Positions 5,681 to 38,714 of a DNA stretch of 64,000 bases are shown here, one piece after another. Positions within the stretch are counted from its first letter, which is position 1. The number at the start of each line of letters is the position of its first letter. The notes beneath the pieces are model-generated. The model was not told the DNA's origin. It did no database searches and saw nothing but the letters and a program-made list of their open reading frames with translations. Source of the DNA: Aurantiacibacter aquimixticola. Lineage in GTDB: Bacteria; Pseudomonadota; Alphaproteobacteria; Sphingomonadales; Sphingomonadaceae. The stretch is from assembly GCF_003605475.1 (NCBI RefSeq), contig NZ_RAHX01000001.1, positions 1,736,001-1,800,000 of the forward strand. The letters run 5' to 3'. Position numbers and translations under genes: made by a program.

Positions 5681-6910
5681 ATGACCCGGATCCTGCACAT
5701 CCTCGATCACTCGCTGCCCATGCATAGCGGCTACACCTTCCGCACCCGTGCGATCATGTCCGCGCAGGCGCGCATGGGGCTGGACGTGCGCGGGCTCACG
5801 GGACTGCGTCACACGGCGGATGGACCGAACATGGAGCAGGTGGACGGGCTTACCTTTCATCGCACGGCGGGTGAGGCAAGCGGCCCGCCCGGGCTTCGCG
5901 AATGGCGCGAAATCGGCGCGCTTGCCGATGCGATCGCTACGCTTGCACGCGAGTGGCGGCCCGATGTGCTGCACGCGCATTCGCCGGCGCTGGGCGGGCT
6001 CGCCGCCTCTCGAGCGGGCAAGCGGCTGGGCATTCCGGTCGTCTATGAAATCCGCGCGTTCTGGGAGGATGCTGCCGTCGGCAATCTCGCATCGCGCGAA
6101 GGGTCGCTCAAATATCGGCTGACACGCCGGCTCGAGAACATGGCGGTGGCCGGGGCCGACGCCGTCTTCACCATCTGTAAAGGGCTCAAGAGCGATCTCG
6201 TTGCGCGCGGTGTCGCGGCTGGAAAGATCGGCATCATGCCGAATGGTGTCGATCTCACTCTGTTCGGAGACCCTGCAGCACCCGACCCCGAACTCGCCGC
6301 ACAGCTCGGCCTCGGGAATGGACCGGTGATCGGCTTTATCGGCAGTTTCTACGATTACGAAGGGCTGGACGATCTGATCGACGCCATGCCGCTGCTGGTG
6401 CAGCGCCATCCAGATGCGCGGCTGCTGCTGGTCGGTGGCGGCCCGATGGAGGACATGTTGCGTATGCAGGCGGCCACTTCTCCGGCTTGCGATGCCATCA
6501 TATTCACCGGGCGCGTGCCGCATGACGAGGTCGAGAAATATTACGCGCTGATGGATGTGATGGCCTATCCCCGCAAACGCAGCCGGCTGACCGATCTCGT
6601 CACACCGCTCAAGCCATTGGAGGCGATGGCGCAGATGAAGCTGGTGGCGGCGAGCGATGTGGGCGGGCACCGCGAGCTGATGTCGCATGACGACACCGGC
6701 ACGCTCTTCGCGCCCGACGATCCCGCCGCCTGCGCCGCGGCGCTCGCCGATCTGCTGGACGCGCGCGGCGATTGGCCCGCCATGCGGGAGCGCGCGCTGA
6801 CCCATGTGCGCATGCGGCACGACTGGGATGCCAATGTGCGCAATTATCTGCCTGTTTACCAAGCGCTGATAGGCGAAGGCGTGAACGGACGGGATCTTAC
6901 CGCCGCGTAG
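5681..6910 (+). CDS. Glycosyltransferase family 4, exosortase A system-associated (TIGR04063-like)
   Basis: A 409-residue GT-B fold glycosyltransferase. The start MTRILHILDHSLPMHSGYTF is characteristic of the PEP-CTERM/exosortase-A-associated glycosyltransferases. The N-terminal acceptor domain has the HAHSPALGG loop, and the C-terminal donor domain has IGFIGSFYDYEGLDDLI and the segment TPLKPLEAMAQMKLVAASDVGG that positions the sugar nucleotide (the usual E-x7-E region). It would add a sugar to a cytoplasmic lipid-linked or protein acceptor. It is divergent from the O-glycosylation ligase and the 52-aa ORF, a conserved pairing in exopolysaccharide/exosortase loci. Confidence 0.88.
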   Translation: MTRILHILDHSLPMHSGYTFRTRAIMSAQARMGLDVRGLTGLRHTADGPNMEQVDGLTFHRTAGEASGPPGLREWREIGALADAIATLAREWRPDVLHAHSPALGGLAASRAGKRLGIPVVYEIRAFWEDAAVGNLASREGSLKYRLTRRLENMAVAGADAVFTICKGLKSDLVARGVAAGKIGIMPNGVDLTLFGDPAAPDPELAAQLGLGNGPVIGFIGSFYDYEGLDDLIDAMPLLVQRHPDARLLLVGGGPMEDMLRMQAATSPACDAIIFTGRVPHDEVEKYYALMDVMAYPRKRSRLTDLVTPLKPLEAMAQMKLVAASDVGGHRELMSHDDTGTLFAPDDPAACAAALADLLDARGDWPAMRERALTHVRMRHDWDANVRNYLPVYQALIGEGVNGRDLTAA

Positions 6911-20127: not shown

Positions 20128-20388
20128 TCAACCGCCTGTGCCGGGCGACGCATCGTCCTCGCCGGTATCGCTGACGATCACAATAATAAAGCCAATCGCG
20201 AGCACAATACCGATAAGGATTGGAAACAGCGCACCTTCATCGTCGTCGTCATCGTCGTTCACGATGAAGTCCGCACTATCCGCACTGTCGAATGAGATCG
20301 GCGCGTCGTCGGCACGGGTGTTGGCATATGCAGAAACTGACGCCAATGTGAGCATGGCGGCTGCTGTCGTCGCAATGATCTTTCTCAT
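20128..20388 (-). CDS. Small secreted/membrane protein with a six-Asp tract, hypothetical
   Basis: I start it at ATG 20388, preceded by GGAG seven bases upstream; the frame is open to 20493. The 86-residue product has a clear signal peptide (MRKIIATTAAAMLTLASVSAYA), then an acidic linker containing six consecutive Asp. One strongly hydrophobic helix (about 55-71) and an acidic, Gly-rich tail follow. The mature protein would be a single-pass or peripheral membrane peptide. The Asp run could bind divalent metal, but this is a guess. It has its own terminator and is divergent from the RiPP cyclase gene. Confidence 0.75.
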   Translation of the reverse strand: MRKIIATTAAAMLTLASVSAYANTRADDAPISFDSADSADFIVNDDDDDDEGALFPILIGIVLAIGFIIVIVSDTGEDDASPGTGG

Positions 20389-20422
20389 CTCAGCGCTCCA
20401 GGCTCTGGTTGCGTCACGCCGC

Positions 20423-20439
20423 ATACCGCAGTGCGGCAT
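20423..20439. promoter_or_regulatory. Palindrome upstream of the Asp-rich gene (possible operator)
   Basis: ATACCGCAGTGCGGCAT contains perfect arms CCGCA/TGCGG around one base, with AT flanks on both sides. It sits 35-51 bases upstream of the ATG at 20388. On the minus strand a TATACA-like -10 element lies just beyond it (around 20450-20457). Its position near the expected transcription start suits a repressor site, but no regulator is known. Confidence 0.35.
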
Positions 20440-20571
20440 AGTTCGCAACTTTTGTATAGGTGGATGTTCTTTGAGGCATTTTATCCCTGGCATTTGCGAG
20501 CTTAGAAGCTAACCGCTTCCGCGCGTAATCGTGGCGGGGCGAAGATCCGCATCTTATTGGAGACGTGGTTT

Positions 20572-22452
20572 ATGAGCGGTATTGCGGCAATCCTGCATGC
20601 CAGTGGCAAGCCCGCGAATGCCCAAGATATCGCCGAGATGACGAGAGCGATGTCATACCGCGCGCGGGATGGCAGCGATCACTTGATTGCCGGTTCACTT
20701 GCCATGGGGCATTGCGCAAGCCACACCTCACCCGAGGATAGTGCCTGCCGCCAGCCGCTTCGTTCGACGGCAGACAGCACCGTTATCACCATGGACGGAT
20801 ATCTGGCCAATCGCTGCGATCTCTGTCGGCAGTTGCGCCGGTCCGGCGTCGGGCTGCGAAACGACTCTCCCGCCGAGGTATCCCTGGCTGCCTACCGTTT
20901 ATGGGGCGATGGCTTTGCGCCTTATCTGGAGGGTGAGTTTGCACTCATACTTTTCGATGCGCCACGACAGCGGCTTTTGTGCGTCGGAGACCATGCAGGA
21001 CTTCGGCAGCTTTACTATTGGTACGATGGGAAGACGTTTATCGCGGCGACCGATATCGTCGCAGTTCTGTCCGCATTACGAGAACGCCCATCGCCCGATC
21101 TCTCATATCTGGCACAGCACGTCGCCAATGGCTGGTACGACCACGAAGGCACCGCCTGGAAGGGCATTAAACGATTGCAGCCGGCGTCACTCCTGCGACT
21201 TCAAGGCGGGGTCATCTCAGTTGAAACATATTGGCAGCCGCCAGCCGAAGTTGGCGTCCGTTATGAGAGCGATCGGGAATATTTCGAACACTACCGTTCC
21301 GTATTCACGGAGAGCGTCCTGGCCGCATCGCGCAGCTCAGCGCCGCTCGCTTGCGACGTGAGCGGAGGACTCGATTCCTCCGCCATTTTCTGTCTCGCCG
21401 ATCATCTATGCGCTGAAGGACGGCTTGGAGCGCCCGACCTTCTCGGTTTCACCCTCGGCGCTCCGGAAAGTAGCGATGCCGACGAGCGAAGATACGTTGA
21501 AGCGGTAGAGCGACAGACCGGGCGCATGATCGAACGCGCCGCGATGTTCGAACCGAAGCTCGACTGGTATATCGCACAGGGACATGCCGACAAGCGACTA
21601 CCGTCTCTTCCCAACACGGTGATGCTGCGCGCCACTGCTCGCGCGGCTGCGGCACGGGGCTGCCGTGTCAATTTGACCGGCCAGGGCGGCGACCAATGGC
21701 TCGACGGTCTGCCCCACAACTTTCGGGAAGATTTGCGAGCTCGGGATTGGAGCGCACTTAAACGCGGTGCCGCAGCAGACCTGTCTGCGCGTGGCAAGCG
21801 GCGATTCATAGCGAAAGCGTTGCGGCAGTCCCTTGCCGCATCGATCCCTCACTCGGTCAGGCGGATCCTGCTTGATCGTCGTGATCGCCGCACCGCTGAG
21901 CGTCATGGCGAAGATACACGGATGCTATCATCCGCGCTTGCGGCAGCGATTGCAGCGAAGCGCCACACTTATTTCACGCGCACGTCCACGTCAGACCCGG
22001 ACCGGCGCCATATCCATCGCAAATTGCGCTACCCCTTCGCCCTGCTCGCTTACGACATGATGGAATTGCAGGCTGCTCAGGAAGGGATCGAATATCGCCA
22101 TCCAATGCTGTCGCGAAAGTTCATAGAGTTCAGTGCTCGCACACCGGAATTCATCCGATTGCGCGGAGAACAGAACAAATTCATTCATCGTCGCGCCATG
22201 GCGGGCTTGCTGCCGGATGAAATCGTCGAGCGCGAAGACAAAGCCGGCTTCGACCAGACGTTTCATCCCCACCTGCCAGATATCGAGCAGTATTGTGTCG
22301 ATGCTCTGGGCAATCCGCAGTTTGCTCGACTGGTTGACGGCGCCACGATGATCGATGATTTTGACCGCATGCGCATGGGGCGGATTGACGAAATCCCGAT
22401 TTGGACGCTATGGGGATACTTCGCATGTGCAGCATTTCTCGATCTAGAGTGA
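20572..22452 (+). CDS. Asparagine synthetase-like lasso-peptide-type macrolactam cyclase
   Basis: The product has 626 residues from ATG 20572 (GGAG just upstream; an in-frame ATG at 20557 is less likely). The N-terminal half is an Ntn-amidotransferase-like domain, but the residue after Met1 is Ser, so the glutaminase nucleophile Cys2 of true AsnB is absent. The C-terminal half has the ATP-pyrophosphatase motif SGGLDSS (264-270), which adenylates a carboxylate. This combination is that of McjC/LasC-type cyclases that join a core Gly1 to an Asp or Glu side chain. It heads a co-directional set of five genes, including the leader-bearing substrate candidate and a PqqD-type RRE protein. A carbohydrate- or EPS-linked amidotransferase is the alternative. 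Confidence 0.83.
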   Translation: MSGIAAILHASGKPANAQDIAEMTRAMSYRARDGSDHLIAGSLAMGHCASHTSPEDSACRQPLRSTADSTVITMDGYLANRCDLCRQLRRSGVGLRNDSPAEVSLAAYRLWGDGFAPYLEGEFALILFDAPRQRLLCVGDHAGLRQLYYWYDGKTFIAATDIVAVLSALRERPSPDLSYLAQHVANGWYDHEGTAWKGIKRLQPASLLRLQGGVISVETYWQPPAEVGVRYESDREYFEHYRSVFTESVLAASRSSAPLACDVSGGLDSSAIFCLADHLCAEGRLGAPDLLGFTLGAPESSDADERRYVEAVERQTGRMIERAAMFEPKLDWYIAQGHADKRLPSLPNTVMLRATARAAAARGCRVNLTGQGGDQWLDGLPHNFREDLRARDWSALKRGAAADLSARGKRRFIAKALRQSLAASIPHSVRRILLDRRDRRTAERHGEDTRMLSSALAAAIAAKRHTYFTRTSTSDPDRRHIHRKLRYPFALLAYDMMELQAAQEGIEYRHPMLSRKFIEFSARTPEFIRLRGEQNKFIHRRAMAGLLPDEIVEREDKAGFDQTFHPHLPDIEQYCVDALGNPQFARLVDGATMIDDFDRMRMGRIDEIPIWTLWGYFACAAFLDLE

Positions 22453-22481: not shown

Positions 22482-22838
22482 ATGAACCGATCGAAAACTG
22501 CCAAAGTTCTTTCGTACGCCAAGCCCGAGCTCCGCGTGTATGGTTCGGTGCGCAACTTGACCGGTGGAAGCGGGGGAATGGGGGCCGATGCAGGTCCGAT
22601 GAATATGATGTCCGATATGCGCGCTAAGGAAAATGTAGCGAAGGTCGCCACGCATCCTGCAGGATTCGGATTGTACCTCTTCGACTACCGTTCGGAATTT
22701 CGCGCCGTTCATGGTGCACGGCGTCAATTCGGCGTTCTGGCGCAGGAAGTCGCCGAATTCGATCCCTCTTCTGTGGTGCGCGAAAAGGACGGATATTTGC
22801 GCGTCGATTATGCGAAGCTGGGCATCGTTCTTCATTAG
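22482..22838 (+). CDS. Lasso-type RiPP precursor fused to a peptidase S74 (intramolecular chaperone) domain
   Basis: The product has 118 residues from ATG 22482, with AGGA about ten bases upstream. Residues 8-28 match the leader of lasso-type RiPP precursors: Tyr12-x2-Pro15-x-Leu17 (the RRE recognition motif), then VYGSVRNLT with Thr27. If Thr27 is the usual -2 residue, the core starts at Gly29 and has Asp36 at ring position 8, followed by a seven-residue tail to Met43. Residues 44-118 resemble the S74 tail-fibre chaperone domain: Ser44-Asp45 and Lys49 in SDMRAKEN, then FGVLAQEVAEFDP and GYLRVDYAKLG. In characterised S74 proteins cleavage occurs just before the Ser, using a Ser-Lys dyad. Leader identification is fairly strong; processing is inference. 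Confidence 0.78.
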   Translation: MNRSKTAKVLSYAKPELRVYGSVRNLTGGSGGMGADAGPMNMMSDMRAKENVAKVATHPAGFGLYLFDYRSEFRAVHGARRQFGVLAQEVAEFDPSSVVREKDGYLRVDYAKLGIVLH

Positions 22839-22859: not shown

Positions 22860-23981
22860 GTGACATCCACACTCGACGAGCATATAGATTACCTGCAGCT
22901 TGAGGGTCGCCTCGATCTTTACGACGAGGCTCTGGCGAAAGTTCTGCGCGAGGGTGACGTCGTCGCCGATCTTGGCTGCGGGGTTGGCGTTTTAGGACTG
23001 GCCGCGCTGAAAGCGGGCGCGTCGCACATCTACGGAATAGACCAGTCCGACGCGATTGAGCTCACCCGTGAGACCATCGCGCGCGCCGGGCTGTCGGATC
23101 GCTACACGTGCATGAAGGCTTCCACCTTCCGCTGCAAGTTGCCTGAGCAGGTCGACCTGCTGCTTTGCGATCATGTCGGCTATCTTGGCTTCGATTATGG
23201 CATTATCGACATGATGCGCGATGCCGCCCGCCGCTTTCTAAAACCTGGTGGCGATGCCATACCGCGCAAGATTCAGCCGGTCCTTGCGGGTGCCTGTTCT
23301 GCGGCCTGTCGCGCGAAGGCGAGAGAATGGGGGGCGCAGGAAATACCGGCGGAGTATCACTGGCTCGAAAACTACGGTCGCAACACAAAACATAATTACG
23401 AGTTTGACAATGGCGAACTTTGTACCGCCCCCGCAGCGCTTCAACCCATCGACCTCATCGCGCCTGGGCCGGACCTCTTCGCGATGGAAGCCGATCTCGA
23501 AATTACGAGCGCCGGTTTATTCGACGGGCTCGCTGGCTGGTTCGATTGTGAACTCACTCCCGGCGTGGTGATGACGAACGCGCCAGGACGCCCGGAATCG
23601 ATCGCGAGAAGCAACGCCTTCTTGCCGTGTCAAAGCAGCTTCCATGTCAATGTCGGCGATCGCGTGCATGTCGGGCTGAAATTCCGAAGCGATGGCGAAT
23701 TTCTTGCCTGGACAATCACGCCACCGTGCGGGAGACCTCAGGTGCTATCCAATTGGAAGAGCCGGATTCTGACGGCCGGTGATCTTAGACAGGCGGCCAA
23801 TGCACCGATCACTCTCAACGCCCTCGGCCGAGCCCGCAAGGCAGTGTTCGCGGCGACCGACGGCACACGCTCGGCGCAGGCTATTGCAGACAAGGTCGTC
23901 TCCGACAATCCCGATCTGTTTCCGACCGAAAGCGCGCTCCGTCGATTTGTCTTGCGCGAGATCGGCAATGTTTCCGAATGA
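22860..23981 (+). CDS. PRMT-like class I SAM methyltransferase with C-terminal winged-helix-like tail
   Basis: A 373-residue protein from GTG 22860; the ribosome-binding site is poor, so the start is uncertain. The SAM site is VADLGCGVGVLGLAAL (35-50), with acidic Asp61 after strand 2. A beta-barrel-like second half (about 190-300) resembles protein arginine methyltransferases. At the PRMT double-E loop the sequence reads CDHVGYLGFD, with Asp104 and Asp112 instead of Glu. The last 55 residues (318-373, with ATDGTRSAQAIADKV) look like the PqqD/RRE winged helix. It probably modifies a peptide of the RiPP island. The next gene starts inside its stop codon. Confidence 0.75.
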   Translation: MTSTLDEHIDYLQLEGRLDLYDEALAKVLREGDVVADLGCGVGVLGLAALKAGASHIYGIDQSDAIELTRETIARAGLSDRYTCMKASTFRCKLPEQVDLLLCDHVGYLGFDYGIIDMMRDAARRFLKPGGDAIPRKIQPVLAGACSAACRAKAREWGAQEIPAEYHWLENYGRNTKHNYEFDNGELCTAPAALQPIDLIAPGPDLFAMEADLEITSAGLFDGLAGWFDCELTPGVVMTNAPGRPESIARSNAFLPCQSSFHVNVGDRVHVGLKFRSDGEFLAWTITPPCGRPQVLSNWKSRILTAGDLRQAANAPITLNALGRARKAVFAATDGTRSAQAIADKVVSDNPDLFPTESALRRFVLREIGNVSE

Positions 23982-24802
23982 AAGGATGGAAACTTTATGC
24001 GCCACGCAAACAGGTCGAGCTTGCCTCTGAAGCGTATGACCGATGGGTCGATCAAGACAATGACACGATCGCCGAATTCCATCGGACGAGCGAGGCCATT
24101 TTGGTGCGATTCTGGGACCAGGCCGATATAGCGATCGGCTCCGACAGCGTATCATGCTTCCCCGCGCCTGACACTTCAACAGAGGCCTTGGAGAGACTTC
24201 GGCAAAATGCCATTCATCCACTGCTCACCAATCACGAAGGCGGCCTCTGCCTGCATGGCAGTGCAATAGCGTTGAGCGGGGAGGCCATCGCCTTTCTTGG
24301 CCACTCCCGAACCGGCAAGACCACCCTCGCCGCAGCCTTTGCCGCATCTGGCGTGCCTTTTCTGACCGAGGACGTCATCGAATTGGAGGAAAAGGATGGC
24401 CGCTTTTTCGTGCAACCACAGCAACCCGTGTTGCGCGTGTTCAGTGATACGGCAAACAATGTGCTCGGGCAACGACGCTTGGCATCGGACACCGACAAGC
24501 GGGACGTGGCCGCGCAAGAGGGTGTCCCTTTTGCCGTCGAAGCAAGCCCTTTGGCGCGCATCTATCTTCTGGATCGCGACGAGATCGATGAGATTGTCAT
24601 CAAGCCAGCGGATCCTGCTAACGCGCTTGCGGCGATGCTGCAGCACGCCTTCGTTCTCGATATAGCCGACAAGGCTCGTCTTCGCGGCCACTTCGAGAGG
24701 CTCTCCGGTCTTGCCATAAGGACTGCGTGCTTCACGCTTGACTATCCCCGGCGCTTTGCCGACCTGCCGAATGTGCTTAGCGCCATCAAGGACCATGCAT
24801 GA
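23978..24802 (+). CDS. HPr kinase/phosphorylase-like (HprK-related) kinase
   Basis: A 274-residue protein overlapping the methyltransferase stop by four bases (ATGA). The HprK-like core has LCLHGSAIAL followed by the P-loop GHSRTGKTT (108-116) and then LTEDVIELEE (129-138), the position of the acidic catalytic pair in HPr kinase. The N-terminal 80 residues differ from true HprK. Such kinases occur in lasso clusters (phosphorylating a C-terminal Ser in paeninodin-type peptides) and in the PqqD/HprK-related exosortase-linked sets. The substrate here is unknown. Confidence 0.82.
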   Translation: MKGWKLYAPRKQVELASEAYDRWVDQDNDTIAEFHRTSEAILVRFWDQADIAIGSDSVSCFPAPDTSTEALERLRQNAIHPLLTNHEGGLCLHGSAIALSGEAIAFLGHSRTGKTTLAAAFAASGVPFLTEDVIELEEKDGRFFVQPQQPVLRVFSDTANNVLGQRRLASDTDKRDVAAQEGVPFAVEASPLARIYLLDRDEIDEIVIKPADPANALAAMLQHAFVLDIADKARLRGHFERLSGLAIRTACFTLDYPRRFADLPNVLSAIKDHA

Positions 24803-25071
24803 CGACTGACGATACGATCTCTGCTTCACCGGACGTCGTCGCGCGCGAGATCGGCGATGAGATGGTGCTTATGGATTTGCAAAGCGGGACTTATTTCGGC
24901 TTGAATCTGGTCGGCAGTTTCATTTGGGAACGCATCTCCGCTGAGCCGCAGACGATTGGCTCGCTCGCCGATGCAGTGGCAGCGCGCTTCGACGCCACTC
25001 GGGACGATATTCTGAGCGACATCGTCGATATTGCCGAGCAATTGCAATCGAATGGACTGCTGGCGACCTAG
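24799..25071 (+). CDS. PqqD family RiPP recognition element protein
   Basis: A 90-residue winged-helix protein overlapping the kinase stop codon (ATGA). The family pattern is clear: REIGDEMVLMDLQSGTYFGL, followed by NLVGSFIWERI and the C-terminal helices DDILSDIVDIAEQL. PqqD-like proteins bind the leader of a ribosomal peptide and present it to modifying enzymes; in lasso clusters this is the B1 protein that recognises the Y-x2-P-x-L motif seen at 22482. It ends the operon, and its stop overlaps the convergent nucleotidyltransferase gene. Confidence 0.9.
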   Translation: MTTDDTISASPDVVAREIGDEMVLMDLQSGTYFGLNLVGSFIWERISAEPQTIGSLADAVAARFDATRDDILSDIVDIAEQLQSNGLLAT

Positions 25072-26216
25072 CGGCGCTTCGTGAGCCAGCGAAATGGCGC
25101 CGCAAGCATTCGACGCACGTATAGCCATGTAAGCGAAGCACCGGCTCGGTCCGGGTATCGCACTCGCATCCGCACCTCACTAGGGAACAGCTGCGCGCTC
25201 AGCACTTGCCTTTTGGCATAAAATCCATGGGCAGCAGATAAGTCGTAACGTAAGCGACGCCACGGCGTGGATGAGGAAATATACTCGTCGAGCCACGATG
25301 CGGCGCTCGCACCATTCAAAGCGTCAAGAACCGCCTGCGGAACTTCTGCTTTCAATGATTGAGCCGAGTGCCGAAGCGCCTCAGCAACAGTGCGCGCTAT
25401 GCCGCGGCTAGCGGCACAATCTTTCAATTGCTCCCAGTTTTCGCTGTCGAATGTACGGCAAAGCACCATAACGTCATGAGCGCCTCCTAGGCGGCGCACG
25501 CCCTTGATGCACTCGCCATTGACGACGTAGCCCAGATGAAAATGTCGCGCTTCGTTCAAGGCAATGTTGATGAGGGTGGTCACCGGGTCGGTGCCGCGCG
25601 CGCCCATCGTCAATCGAGGCAGGGGCACGGCCAAAGCAAAGGGATCGGCGGGGAAGATCGTGGCAAGAGCAGGCGAATTCGTCATCGCCCAATGAAGATC
25701 GACTTGCTGTGAGACGCCGAAAACGGGTCGGCTCTCCCAGCCTTCTTGGGCAAGACCATCCTGCAGTCCGCCCGTGCGGACGAACCCGACTTGGGCAAGT
25801 ACGCTTCGCGCATTTTCCGCCTGCTCCGGGCGAACGAGCACGTCGATGTCTCCAGACGCACGCTGTTCCGGTTTATCGTAGACGGAGTAGGCGAGGCGAG
25901 CGCCCTTCAAAAACAGCAGATCTACGGCTGCGGCGGCGAACTCTTCAGCCAACATCGTCGCCACTTCGTAGCGAGATGCGTTCAATATCGCCAGCCGACT
26001 CGCCTCGTTTTCAATGGCTTTGCGTAGGGCCGCATGCGTATCGGAGAAGGCATCCAATTTGTCAGTGAGAATACCAGCGATCCCATGCAGCCGCACCCGC
26101 TTCAGAACGTCATGGTCGGCAATCCGATCCGGCAGTTTCAGATCTGCCGCAGCTCCGATTACCAAGCAGCTTGCCAAGAAAGAGTCGATTAGCAGGGTAT
26201 CATGTGTATCGAGCAC
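25068..26216 (-). CDS. NTP_transf_5-type nucleotidyltransferase-like protein
   Basis: A 382-residue protein of the uncharacterised nucleotidyltransferase family PF14907. The nucleotidyltransferase core shows LLFLKGARL (100-108) and RASGDIDVLV (119-128), where Asp123 and Asp125 would bind metal. A helical C-terminal region follows. Such proteins often accompany PqqD, HprK-like kinase and asparagine-synthetase genes. It is convergent with the RiPP operon and probably belongs to the island, although it is transcribed oppositely. The start is GTG/ATG-like at 26216, close to the RmlA gene on the other strand. Confidence 0.82.
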   Translation of the reverse strand: MLDTHDTLLIDSFLASCLVIGAAADLKLPDRIADHDVLKRVRLHGIAGILTDKLDAFSDTHAALRKAIENEASRLAILNASRYEVATMLAEEFAAAAVDLLFLKGARLAYSVYDKPEQRASGDIDVLVRPEQAENARSVLAQVGFVRTGGLQDGLAQEGWESRPVFGVSQQVDLHWAMTNSPALATIFPADPFALAVPLPRLTMGARGTDPVTTLINIALNEARHFHLGYVVNGECIKGVRRLGGAHDVMVLCRTFDSENWEQLKDCAASRGIARTVAEALRHSAQSLKAEVPQAVLDALNGASAASWLDEYISSSTPWRRLRYDLSAAHGFYAKRQVLSAQLFPSEVRMRVRYPDRAGASLTWLYVRRMLAAPFRWLTKRR

Positions 26217-35547: not shown

Positions 35548-35642
35548 AGGCCGGTGTTCCTTTTTATTCTATGAGCGAGACCACTTTTCCAATTGAGAAG
35601 AATGATCCACGGTGTCAGAAAATACACATCTGTGATCCCATT

Positions 35643-38600
35643 TCACGCCACATCCACCATGATCGTTTCGTCATTGTCGCCGCGCAGCACGAAGATGCGG
35701 TCCACGCCGGTCAGCGGTTTCGCCACCGTCACCTGCCCGCCATCGAGCGCGAAATACCCCTCGCCATTGCCGCCGTAGCGGGCGTGGAAGGCGGAGGCGG
35801 CCACGCCGGTCGCCACCACGCTGCCCACTGCCGCACCCGGCGCGATCTCGGCAAGGTGATCGGGCTTACGGTGATAGACCGCTGCCAGCCCCGCAATCAC
35901 GTCGTCCCATGCGGCATGATTGCCGCGCGCCAGCGCCAGCGTAGCGTTCGGATCGAAGCCCAGCTTGGCCGCCGCGCCATCGGCAAAGGCGAAAGTCCAC
36001 GGATCGGTGACCGGCTCGGCCTGCCCGCTCGCATGAATGTCAGCGGGGTCGAGCAGGTCCGTCAGCACGCCGTCGCTCGCGCCGGGCGTGGTGTAGCCGC
36101 TGAAACCCTGCGCGCGGGGCAGGCCGATGCGATTGAGCGTGCCGGTCGTGGTGCCGCCGCCGCTATCGGAAAGTCCGGTCGGATGCGCCGTTGCGCTCCA
36201 CACATTCGCGCCGAGCTGGAGCGTGTTGTTTGCCCCCGCTGCGCCGATATTCATGGCGATGCCGTCGCCGCCCTCGAAGCGATAGTCGCTGTATGCCTGC
36301 ACAAGCAACGAATTCTGCAAGGTCTCGACGCTGCCTGCCAGCAGCGAATGGTCGAAGCGATAGGCATTGCTGACATCTGCCAGCACCGCGACGAAGCGGT
36401 CGGTGACGATGCCGGTGATCGAACTTCCGTCCGCCGCAAGCGAGGACGTGCCGGTGTGGAACGGGCCCTGCCCGTGATTGAGCATCACCACATCATCCGC
36501 CACCATGCCGTTGATGGTGACGAAGAAGCGGTTCACCTGATCGTTGTCGCCATGCGTGCCGGTGCTGGTCAGCGCCGGGTTGGTATCGACGTTCCAGACA
36601 TTGCCCGCGCTGTAGCGGCCTCGGTCGAAGGTGAAGCGCGCTTTCAGCGTGCCGGTGTCGATCTCGTAGACATCGCCCGTCTGCTGGTGCCGCGAATAGC
36701 CGCCCATATCGACCTGCTGGGCGTTCCACTCATAGCCGGGACGCGAGGTGCCGATGCCGCTGCCCGGCGCGTAATAGCGGATGCGGCAGGTCTTCGCCGG
36801 ATCGGGCGCGGCGGTGAAGGTGTCGGTGTCGAAATCCCACATCCCGACCAGCTGCGCTTCATGGCCATGCGGCAGGTCCGCCAGCGTCAGCCCGCTCGCA
36901 TCGAAGGGGACGAAGCCGCTGCCGGTATCCACCTCGATCTGCTTGCGGCTCTGCCATATGGACATGCCGGGATGAAAGGTCATGGAACCGTGGAAGCGGC
37001 GCGATGCCTGCACGTTGGCGAACGTGCCACGGCTCCAATAGATCGGATCGGACCACATGAGGCTGTAGCAGGTATCGTCGAGATTGAGCGCAACGGCGGT
37101 GTTCCTGTCGCGCGCCTCCATCGACATGCGAGCAAGCCGTTCGAAGCGAGAGCCGGACAGGTCGATGCTGCCAGCGTTCTCGATAAAAGGCAGGAACTCG
37201 CCGACATAGACGCGCTGCTCATCGCTTTCGTCCGCCTGCGCCTCGCTCCGCGCGCGCGTGGTGTGGACGGTCTCTCCCATGACGAGGCAGCCGCGCGCGT
37301 TGAGCGCGGTGCCAGCGGCCAGAAGGAAACTGGTGCTGTTGCCGAAGGTGCGAATATCGGTCTGCCGCCAATAGGTCGAAACCGTGTCGCCAAGCGCGAG
37401 GAACACGCAGCCGTCGAGCGTCAGCGCGCCGGTCACATAAGCGCCGCTGGTCGCATGCTTGCCCAGCACCGGAGCGAGATCGCGCCGCGCCTGAAACACG
37501 GGCGCGATAGTCGCATCGCCGACCCGGTCGTTGATGTCGTCGGCGACCAGCCAGCGCGAGGCGATGTAGCCGGGGCCGTAATGCAGCGTGATGCTGGCGG
37601 GCTGCTCCCACGGGCGCGCGTAGAAATGCAGGTTGGGATTGTCGAGCAAGCCGGTGCGATCCGCCGCCTCCGCGCCCGTTGCGATGCCAATGCGCGTCTC
37701 CAGCGGCTCATACGGCACGCCCAGCGGCACGGCGGGCGCTTCGATCGCGCCGCCCGGCACCTGCGAACGCGCCATCGCCAGCCCTTCGCAGATATAGCCT
37801 GCATTGGAGAGCGTGCTGACCAGCGTGTCGGCGGTGAAGGTCTTGCTCGCGGCACACACCGGCACGGCAGCGGGCGCGCAGGCCGGGTTCTTGCGGATCA
37901 TCGCCTCGCAGACGTGGACCTTGCGACCCTGCCCCGCAGTGGTGCCGGAATAGTTGATGCCGATGCCCTGCGTGTCGCCCGTGCTGTCGGCAAGCCTGTC
38001 CGCCCAGAGATACCACCATCGCTTGCCGTTGATGATACCCATGTCGTGATATCCTGCGCGATAGGTCGCCCAGTTCTCGGTGAAGCCGGTGATGTTGCCT
38101 TGCGCGTCGTGGTCGAAGTCGAAGCTGAAATTGCTGTTGCCGTGACCTCGCGGGCCGACCTTGCCCGCTTCGGTCGTCTCGATGCTGACAATGACTTCGT
38201 GCCGCAGCACATCGCCTTCCAGCACACCCGACACCTTGACGTTGTTGGCATTGTGGAAACTGCCATCGGCATCGGTCTGCGTGATGACGACGCCGCCGCC
38301 CGAGCCGCCGAAAATGTCAGGCTCGCTATGCGCCCCGGCATAGGCGATGGAGCCGCCCGAACGCGGCGCGAAATAGGCGGCATCGCCCGATCCGTGTGTT
38401 GCCGCCGGATCGTCCCACGGCGCGGAATGATAGGTGTCCGCGCCTTGCAGATACTGCCCGACAAACGCGCCGTCCCCGGCAAAGCACAGCCGCTCCTCAT
38501 CCGCAGCACAGCGGACGAGCCCCTCAGGCGCGCGGCGGAACCGGCCCTCGGTGGCGGTGTAGGCGGACACGCGGCTATCGGCGGCAAACCCTTCGGACAC

Positions 38601-38714
38601 GTCTGGCTGGCCGAGAGTGGTGAGGGCGATCGCATTGGCGGAAATGGGCCACCCGATCTTGTTTTCGCCCGGTCGGCGGAAAGCGCAGGTTAACGAGATG
38701 CCAATCCCGCTCAT
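35643..38714 (-). CDS. Large spike fibre-like protein (GTA head-spike GhsB-like position), hypothetical
   Basis: A 1023-residue protein that starts at ATG 38714, sharing one base with the stop of the spike base gene (TGATG). It is Gly/Ser/Thr/Asp-rich with many short repeats of beta-type segments (for example TFANVQASRRFHG and DGGQVTVAKPLTG), typical of trimeric phage-like fibres. No signal peptide or membrane helix is seen. Its partner upstream belongs to the RCAP_rcc01079 spike base family, and in Rhodobacter capsulatus the following gene encodes the second head-spike protein; function is inferred from this order, not from recognised homology. An enzymatic depolymerase tailspike is the alternative. 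Its GC content looks higher than its neighbours. Confidence 0.65.
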   Translation of the reverse strand: MSGIGISLTCAFRRPGENKIGWPISANAIALTTLGQPDVSEGFAADSRVSAYTATEGRFRRAPEGLVRCAADEERLCFAGDGAFVGQYLQGADTYHSAPWDDPAATHGSGDAAYFAPRSGGSIAYAGAHSEPDIFGGSGGGVVITQTDADGSFHNANNVKVSGVLEGDVLRHEVIVSIETTEAGKVGPRGHGNSNFSFDFDHDAQGNITGFTENWATYRAGYHDMGIINGKRWWYLWADRLADSTGDTQGIGINYSGTTAGQGRKVHVCEAMIRKNPACAPAAVPVCAASKTFTADTLVSTLSNAGYICEGLAMARSQVPGGAIEAPAVPLGVPYEPLETRIGIATGAEAADRTGLLDNPNLHFYARPWEQPASITLHYGPGYIASRWLVADDINDRVGDATIAPVFQARRDLAPVLGKHATSGAYVTGALTLDGCVFLALGDTVSTYWRQTDIRTFGNSTSFLLAAGTALNARGCLVMGETVHTTRARSEAQADESDEQRVYVGEFLPFIENAGSIDLSGSRFERLARMSMEARDRNTAVALNLDDTCYSLMWSDPIYWSRGTFANVQASRRFHGSMTFHPGMSIWQSRKQIEVDTGSGFVPFDASGLTLADLPHGHEAQLVGMWDFDTDTFTAAPDPAKTCRIRYYAPGSGIGTSRPGYEWNAQQVDMGGYSRHQQTGDVYEIDTGTLKARFTFDRGRYSAGNVWNVDTNPALTSTGTHGDNDQVNRFFVTINGMVADDVVMLNHGQGPFHTGTSSLAADGSSITGIVTDRFVAVLADVSNAYRFDHSLLAGSVETLQNSLLVQAYSDYRFEGGDGIAMNIGAAGANNTLQLGANVWSATAHPTGLSDSGGGTTTGTLNRIGLPRAQGFSGYTTPGASDGVLTDLLDPADIHASGQAEPVTDPWTFAFADGAAAKLGFDPNATLALARGNHAAWDDVIAGLAAVYHRKPDHLAEIAPGAAVGSVVATGVAASAFHARYGGNGEGYFALDGGQVTVAKPLTGVDRIFVLRGDNDETIMVDVA

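Follow-up and report, generated by a model that had tools for sequence, protein, structure and literature searches.

Lasso peptide clusters that encode a kinase, such as those of paeninodin, SyanA, pseudomycoidin and the Bradymonas peptide BsfA, share a YxxPxL leader motif, Thr or Ile at position -2 and a Gly1-Asp8 core, together with a separate B1 protein, a kinase and a nucleotidyltransferase (PMC10368454, PMC9266682). Their precursors stop at the core. In contrast, a 118-residue open reading frame (ORF) of Aurantiacibacter aquimixticola, encoded at positions 22482-22838 (+ strand) of a 64,000-nucleotide stretch of its genome (hereafter "the window"), almost certainly represents a lasso-type precursor that continues into a 75-residue S74 domain. 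S74 or ICA domains are known from endosialidase, phage tail fibres and MyRF. The window domain shares with them the S74 sequence, the Ser-x4-Lys dyad, the reaction-centre residues and, as far as predicted, possibly the fold, but it sits on a disordered peptide of 43 residues rather than on a fibre or DNA-binding protein, and it has no alpha-4 coiled coil. Among ribosomally synthesized and post-translationally modified peptides (RiPPs), borosins likewise hold the core and a catalytic domain on one chain; their N-terminal methyltransferase modifies the core, whereas the domain of the window precursor is C-terminal and belongs to a self-cleavage family. Engineered fusions of astexin-1 and pandonodin to superfolder GFP (sfGFP) or the leucine zipper A1 also carry a folded protein on the lasso tail; these are man-made and contain no self-cutting domain, whereas the window fusion is natural and conserved (PMC8498205).

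The single frame of the precursor gene comprises a leader (residues 1-28, 22482-22565), a candidate core (residues 29-43, 22566-22610) and the S74 follower (residues 44-118, 22611-22835). A preliminary description of this DNA had proposed a lasso-type leader and core, and the residues on which it relied are in place: counting G29 as core residue 1, Y12, P15 and L17 of the YxxPxL motif lie at -17, -14 and -12, and T27 lies at -2. BsfA has identical leader spacing and also Gly1-Asp8 (PMC10368454). The candidate core, GSGGMGADAGPMNMM, carries Gly1, Ser2 and Asp at position 8 (D36), followed by a tail of seven residues that ends at M43. Directly behind this tail, S44-D45 and K49 mark the beginning of the S74 domain with its Ser44/Lys49 dyad. 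Pfam Peptidase_S74 matches residues 44-98 (30 bits, cut-off 22), the sole S74 match in the whole genome. The NCBIfam lasso leader model NF033521 scores 18.3 bits on the precursor, slightly below its cut-off of 19; two of three short relatives pass the same model with 30.4 and 26.5 bits, and one fails with 18.1. The lasso-type identity of the ORF is based on leader, core and gene set. A prophage tail gene was ruled out, as the genome has this single S74 match, the neighbours are lasso-type, and no lasso leader pattern was found in the short ORFs of 80 viral S74 loci (kept from 94). That the ORF arose by chance or that the motif was misread was discarded in view of the homologues, the purifying selection and the gene order.

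Altogether, 18 distinct fusions of a lasso leader to an S74 domain were collected, and their conservation follows the positions that the preliminary description had singled out, none of which varies freely. Across 11 aligned fusions, which all match the S74 family at E 0.01 or better, no variation is seen at Y12, P15, L17, L26, T27, D45 and K49. The conservation of the leader is in part a product of selection, as some lists were built with the leader pattern; the ring acid was not used in any selection. This acid is present in 18/18 fusions, at core position 8 (16 fusions) or 9 (two fusions), as Asp in 17 and Glu in one. Within-core shuffles (20,000, relatedness ignored) placed an acid at 8/9 in 2.8 of the 18 fusions on average and in 9 at most, and the fusions therefore reflect more than chance. 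The acid also occupies position 8 or 9 in 30/30 short precursors without S74, i.e., in 48/48 precursors overall. The core starts with Gly in 14 fusions and with N, T or A in the other four, and all 18 fusions and all 30 short precursors have Ser or Thr as core residue 2 or 3. At position 44, 16/18 fusions have Ser, L023 has Cys and L022 has a TAG stop, while D45 and K49 are kept in all 18. The stop of L022, a sequence from one metagenome-assembled genome (MAG), lies in frame at the S74 Ser codon (near 6121-6135) with a readable S74 stretch beyond it, and may be an assembly error. Leader, core and S74 are each under purifying selection, with dN/dS values (NG86, six close relatives) of 0.16, 0.23 and 0.12, respectively, the value for S74 being the lowest.

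Sixteen of the fusions belong to Sphingomonadales and two to betaproteobacterial MAGs. By source, nine come from the 40 genomes of the window's genus, four from 114 genomes of genus g41, and five from MAGs assigned to Sphingomonadales, Sphingomonadaceae, Novosphingobium, Thiobacillaceae and Polaromonas. The overlapping samples of the family, order, phylum and class yielded fusions in 4/298, 7/396, 3/398 and 3/337 genomes (those of phylum and class being the same three genomes), and none beyond the organism's own family. Short precursors without S74 occur in 12 further genomes of the genus's 40, and a plasmid search returned seven records, all with the S74 part alone. Several sequences stand outside all counts: 14 further short precursors (L226-L239, read by eye, with Asp at position 8 in all), fusion L026, which is cut by a contig end, L202 (a cyclase alone), the cluster-less short precursors L069 and L072, and the copies L018 (=L063), L222 (=L020) and L223 (=L021). 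Four fusions (L005/G041, L032/G521, L021/G967, L020/G1031) are cluster-less and belong to a conserved sugar-use locus, where a sodium:solute symporter flanks them on one side and a TauD-family dioxygenase on the other. A lasso-type cyclase is encoded elsewhere in all four of these genomes (at least 350 bits to the window cyclase), and these fusions may therefore be processed in trans. Long tails rich in Gly and Met are seen in the cluster-less fusions L060 (6282-6674), L021, L020 and L061.

The S74 domain is predicted to be folded and its peptide to be free. In the AlphaFold2 model, a single-chain prediction, the confidence score (predicted local distance difference test, pLDDT) is below 50 for residues 17-22 and 24-39 and about 90 for residues 41-110, so that leader and core appear disordered up to residue 39; the free tail at residues 29-43 that the preliminary description had assumed is thus not part of the modelled S74 fold. 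In MyRF, the chain is cut between P586 and S587, S587A or K592A abolish cutting, and the hole in which cutting occurs is lined by Y615, Y617, F621, I637, F657, I663 and F666 (PMC8326128). Aligned to these published positions, MyRF S587, K592, Y615, Y617, F621 and I637 correspond to S44, K49, F67, Y69, F73 and L86 of the window precursor; the positions are hand-numbered, and F657, I663 and F666 lie outside the mapping. The columns of S44, K49, F67, Y69 and L86 are kept in at least 16/18 fusions (the L86 column as Met in 17/18), with F73 as the exception. In the precursor, the last strand is followed by a stub helix (110-113), and the chain then stops before the alpha-4 coiled coil that forms the C-terminus of MyRF-type domains. 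Judged from sequence, such minimal domains with a kept dyad are common or usual among the phage proteins examined: in 80 phage S74 loci, SDxxxK was found by pattern in 79 and by eye in L158, and 23/23 of the phage tails shown end no more than about 11 residues past the last strand. Outside lasso clusters, large bacterial proteins (L076, L078, L080, L082, L073) have Gly-rich stretches that lead directly into a C-terminal S74 domain.

Comparison with the related clusters indicates where the domain was added. The distance from the ring acid to the S74 Ser is 7-15 residues in the 14 clustered fusions (median 8.5), and the distance from the ring acid to the stop is 6-18 residues in the 30 short precursors (median 9; p 0.93); when the four cluster-less fusions with tails of 15-22 residues are added, the fused median becomes 10 (p 0.22). 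The core ends resemble each other as well (FMTMV, MTMML and FMAMP in short precursors; PMNMM, MTMAM and MNMVM in fused ones), with M-x-M or MM within the last six residues in 11/18 fused and 9/30 short precursors. Tail lengths and ends being similar, the S74 domain appears to be joined about where the ordinary precursor of this family stops. Among 102 S74 domains, the 18 fused ones fall into one clade (99/93; recovered in 99% of 200 bootstrap trees) in a tree that is built on few columns and with one letter typed in for L022. In the cyclase tree (30 sequences, midpoint root), the S74 label requires four changes, two of them forced by starred branches. A single fusion event with later losses or precursor exchange would fit both trees. 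Fossils of S74 behind short precursors were discarded as a general pattern, L022 being the one clear case. Scores of 39-51 in a few others, compared with shuffle maxima of 32-40, were regarded as noise; only 6 of the 18 rows of the S74 alignment entered the shuffles, which makes this null too low. In L108 and L111, tandem short precursors have Cys before the core as well as in ring and tail (LTCGSAGRCHD...); judging by these residues, they are possibly disulfide-bearing relatives.

The precursor gene lies 29 bases behind an asparagine-synthetase-type cyclase gene (C; 20557-22452, + strand; likely start ATG 20572; Pfam Asn_synthase, 124 bits), and this immediate succession is found in 14/14 clustered fusions. 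Residue 2 of the cyclase, by eye, is Ser, Thr or Ala and never the glutaminase residue Cys in all 30 cyclases compared, as would be expected for lasso cyclases. Downstream follow, in close or overlapping frames, genes for a PrmA/MTS-like methyltransferase (22860-23981, +), which is present in 10/14 S74 and 12/16 short-precursor clusters, for an HprK-related kinase (23978-24802, +; a weak match to TIGR04352 with 30 bits, cut-off 200) and for the PqqD-family RiPP recognition element (RRE) protein B1 (24799-25071, +; Pfam PqqD, 66 bits, cut-off 23.4). Cyclase, kinase and PqqD relatives occur in 30/30 clusters (14 with S74 and 16 with short precursors). On the opposite strand, a nucleotidyltransferase-like protein of the NTP_transf_5 family (25068-26216, -; Pfam, 91 bits, cut-off 31) has counterparts in 12/14 S74 clusters. 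The locus as a whole is embedded in polysaccharide genes (rhamnose, O-antigen ligase, pyruvyl- and glycosyltransferase). Immediately upstream of the cyclase gene, 20128-20493 (-) encodes a small protein with an Asp run and a hydrophobic helix, for which no Pfam or NCBIfam family scored above cut-off at the thresholds used. Within the polysaccharide locus, a 1040-aa ORF (35571-38693, +) has no Pfam match at E 1e-5 and faces an open frame of 1024 aa on the opposite strand.

A B2 leader protease is not found within the lasso-type cluster of the window. The single PF13471 (B2) protein of the genome is encoded on the same contig at a distance of 1.56 Mb, with an ABC exporter gene immediately behind it (L057 6457-8692; G000:C1 about 202456-204691). 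This pair recurs in 7/11 related genomes tested (G103, G251, G502, G545, G946, G949, G956). These include all four genus members whose S74 clusters likewise lack B2 (G103, G502, G545 and G946), and none of the four has a further PF13471 match. The pathway therefore appears to be split over two places, and the remote B2 may act on the window precursor. A B2 gene was present in the stretch examined of 8/14 S74 clusters and 15/16 short-precursor clusters (Fisher p 0.03, relatedness ignored); in view of the 8/14, the idea that S74 replaces B2 was ruled out as a general rule, although B2 is rarer near S74.

Based on these comparisons, the following maturation route can be proposed, in which every enzymatic step, the order of the steps, the threading and the cleavage are inferred. 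The PqqD protein would bind the YxxPxL leader, and the HprK-like kinase may phosphorylate Ser or Thr at core position 2-3. Known lasso kinases act on a C-terminal Ser or on core Ser3, as BsfK does (PMC10368454); the window family, in contrast, has no kept C-terminal Ser, and the Ser or Thr at core position 2 or 3 of every fused and short precursor therefore fits a BsfK-like kinase better than one for a C-terminal Ser. The remote B2, acting in trans, would cleave after residue 28 and remove the leader, and the cyclase would link Gly29 to Asp36 and close the ring. Finally, the folded S74 domain would excise itself before Ser44 via Ser44/Lys49. Met43 would then be the last residue of the core, a terminus like those that related clusters obtain by a stop codon. 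S74 probably functions as such a self-excising follower that sets the C-terminus of the core, and we lean, with moderate confidence, towards cleavage at Ser44 during maturation. Beyond providing a clean end, the domain might serve as a stopper, confer solubility or delay activity. In the most far-reaching version, which is held only tentatively, folded S74 would cap the tail and thereby keep it from slipping out while the cyclase closes the ring around it, before the domain excises itself.

Several observations weigh against this proposal and lend themselves to other explanations. The S74 domain might not cut at all but remain in place as a folded scaffold, by which the peptide is kept soluble, oligomeric or silent, the product being a protein-displayed lasso or one trimmed by other proteases. 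The missing alpha-4 favors this view: the preliminary description had expected the domain to trimerise, and MyRF cleavage requires a trimer, which its C-terminal alpha-4 coiled coil does most to hold together (PMC8326128). This expectation is weakened, yet the phage S74 domains examined usually end at the same point and keep the dyad, and the window domain may trimerise. In addition, the engineered astexin-1 and pandonodin fusions do form lassos with a folded protein on the tail (PMC8498205). On the other hand, a mere scaffold would hardly account for Ser in 16/18 fusions plus one Cys, a possible nucleophile, for Lys in 18/18, or for a domain that begins where the short precursors stop, which makes this explanation rather unlikely. 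Even less probable is that S74 is a passenger, acquired once, tolerated, and cheaply lost or swapped, with the core finished otherwise. Related clusters work with short precursors in 16/30 cases, and S74 is therefore not essential across the family as a whole; the four changes of the S74 label on the cyclase tree and the L022 stop in front of an otherwise readable S74 point in the same direction. A passenger would not be expected, however, to be the most constrained of the three segments, or to be kept as one clade across genera and in two betaproteobacterial MAGs, and the L022 stop comes from a single MAG.

Doubts of another kind concern the lasso itself. The cores are Gly-rich and without obvious bulky plug residues, and all scores of the NCBIfam lasso cyclase and PqqD models fall below cut-off at the window locus (cyclase on NF033535, 285 bits, cut-off 525; PqqD protein on lasso_PqqD_Bac, 45 bits, cut-off 80). 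Given the polysaccharide genes nearby, the product might be an unthreaded macrolactam RiPP, or the enzymes might have their role in the polysaccharide locus around them and not in making a lasso peptide. This is considered unlikely in view of the canonical leader spacing, the acid at 8/9 in every precursor, the consistent presence of cyclase, PqqD and kinase, the B2 genes in 23/30 clusters, and the lack of the glutaminase Cys in all cyclases.

The preliminary description knew of no described lasso-type precursor of this architecture. Among the open-access literature matches listed, nothing relevant was found for a lasso or RiPP precursor with S74, an endosialidase chaperone or an intramolecular chaperone, and a word search of a 2026 review of interlocked peptides found no 'follower', 'C-terminal extension' or 'autoproteoly' (PMC13352647). 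As far as searched, no lasso-type precursor has been described whose follower is folded and possibly catalytic. Genome mining could overlook such genes, since short precursors are what is looked for and an S74 region is readily annotated as 'tail fiber domain-containing protein', the name that the plasmid S74 matches carry. S74 chaperones serve fibres, tailspikes and MyRF-type factors, and the window fusion would extend their use beyond these. If the cut runs via an acyl-serine, the C-terminus of the core would be briefly activated for other chemistry. The family offers a natural system for asking whether a bulky group on the tail aids threading, and perhaps a traceless route to lasso peptides. 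If the stopper reading is true, one chain would be substrate, threading aid and C-terminal maturation protease at once.
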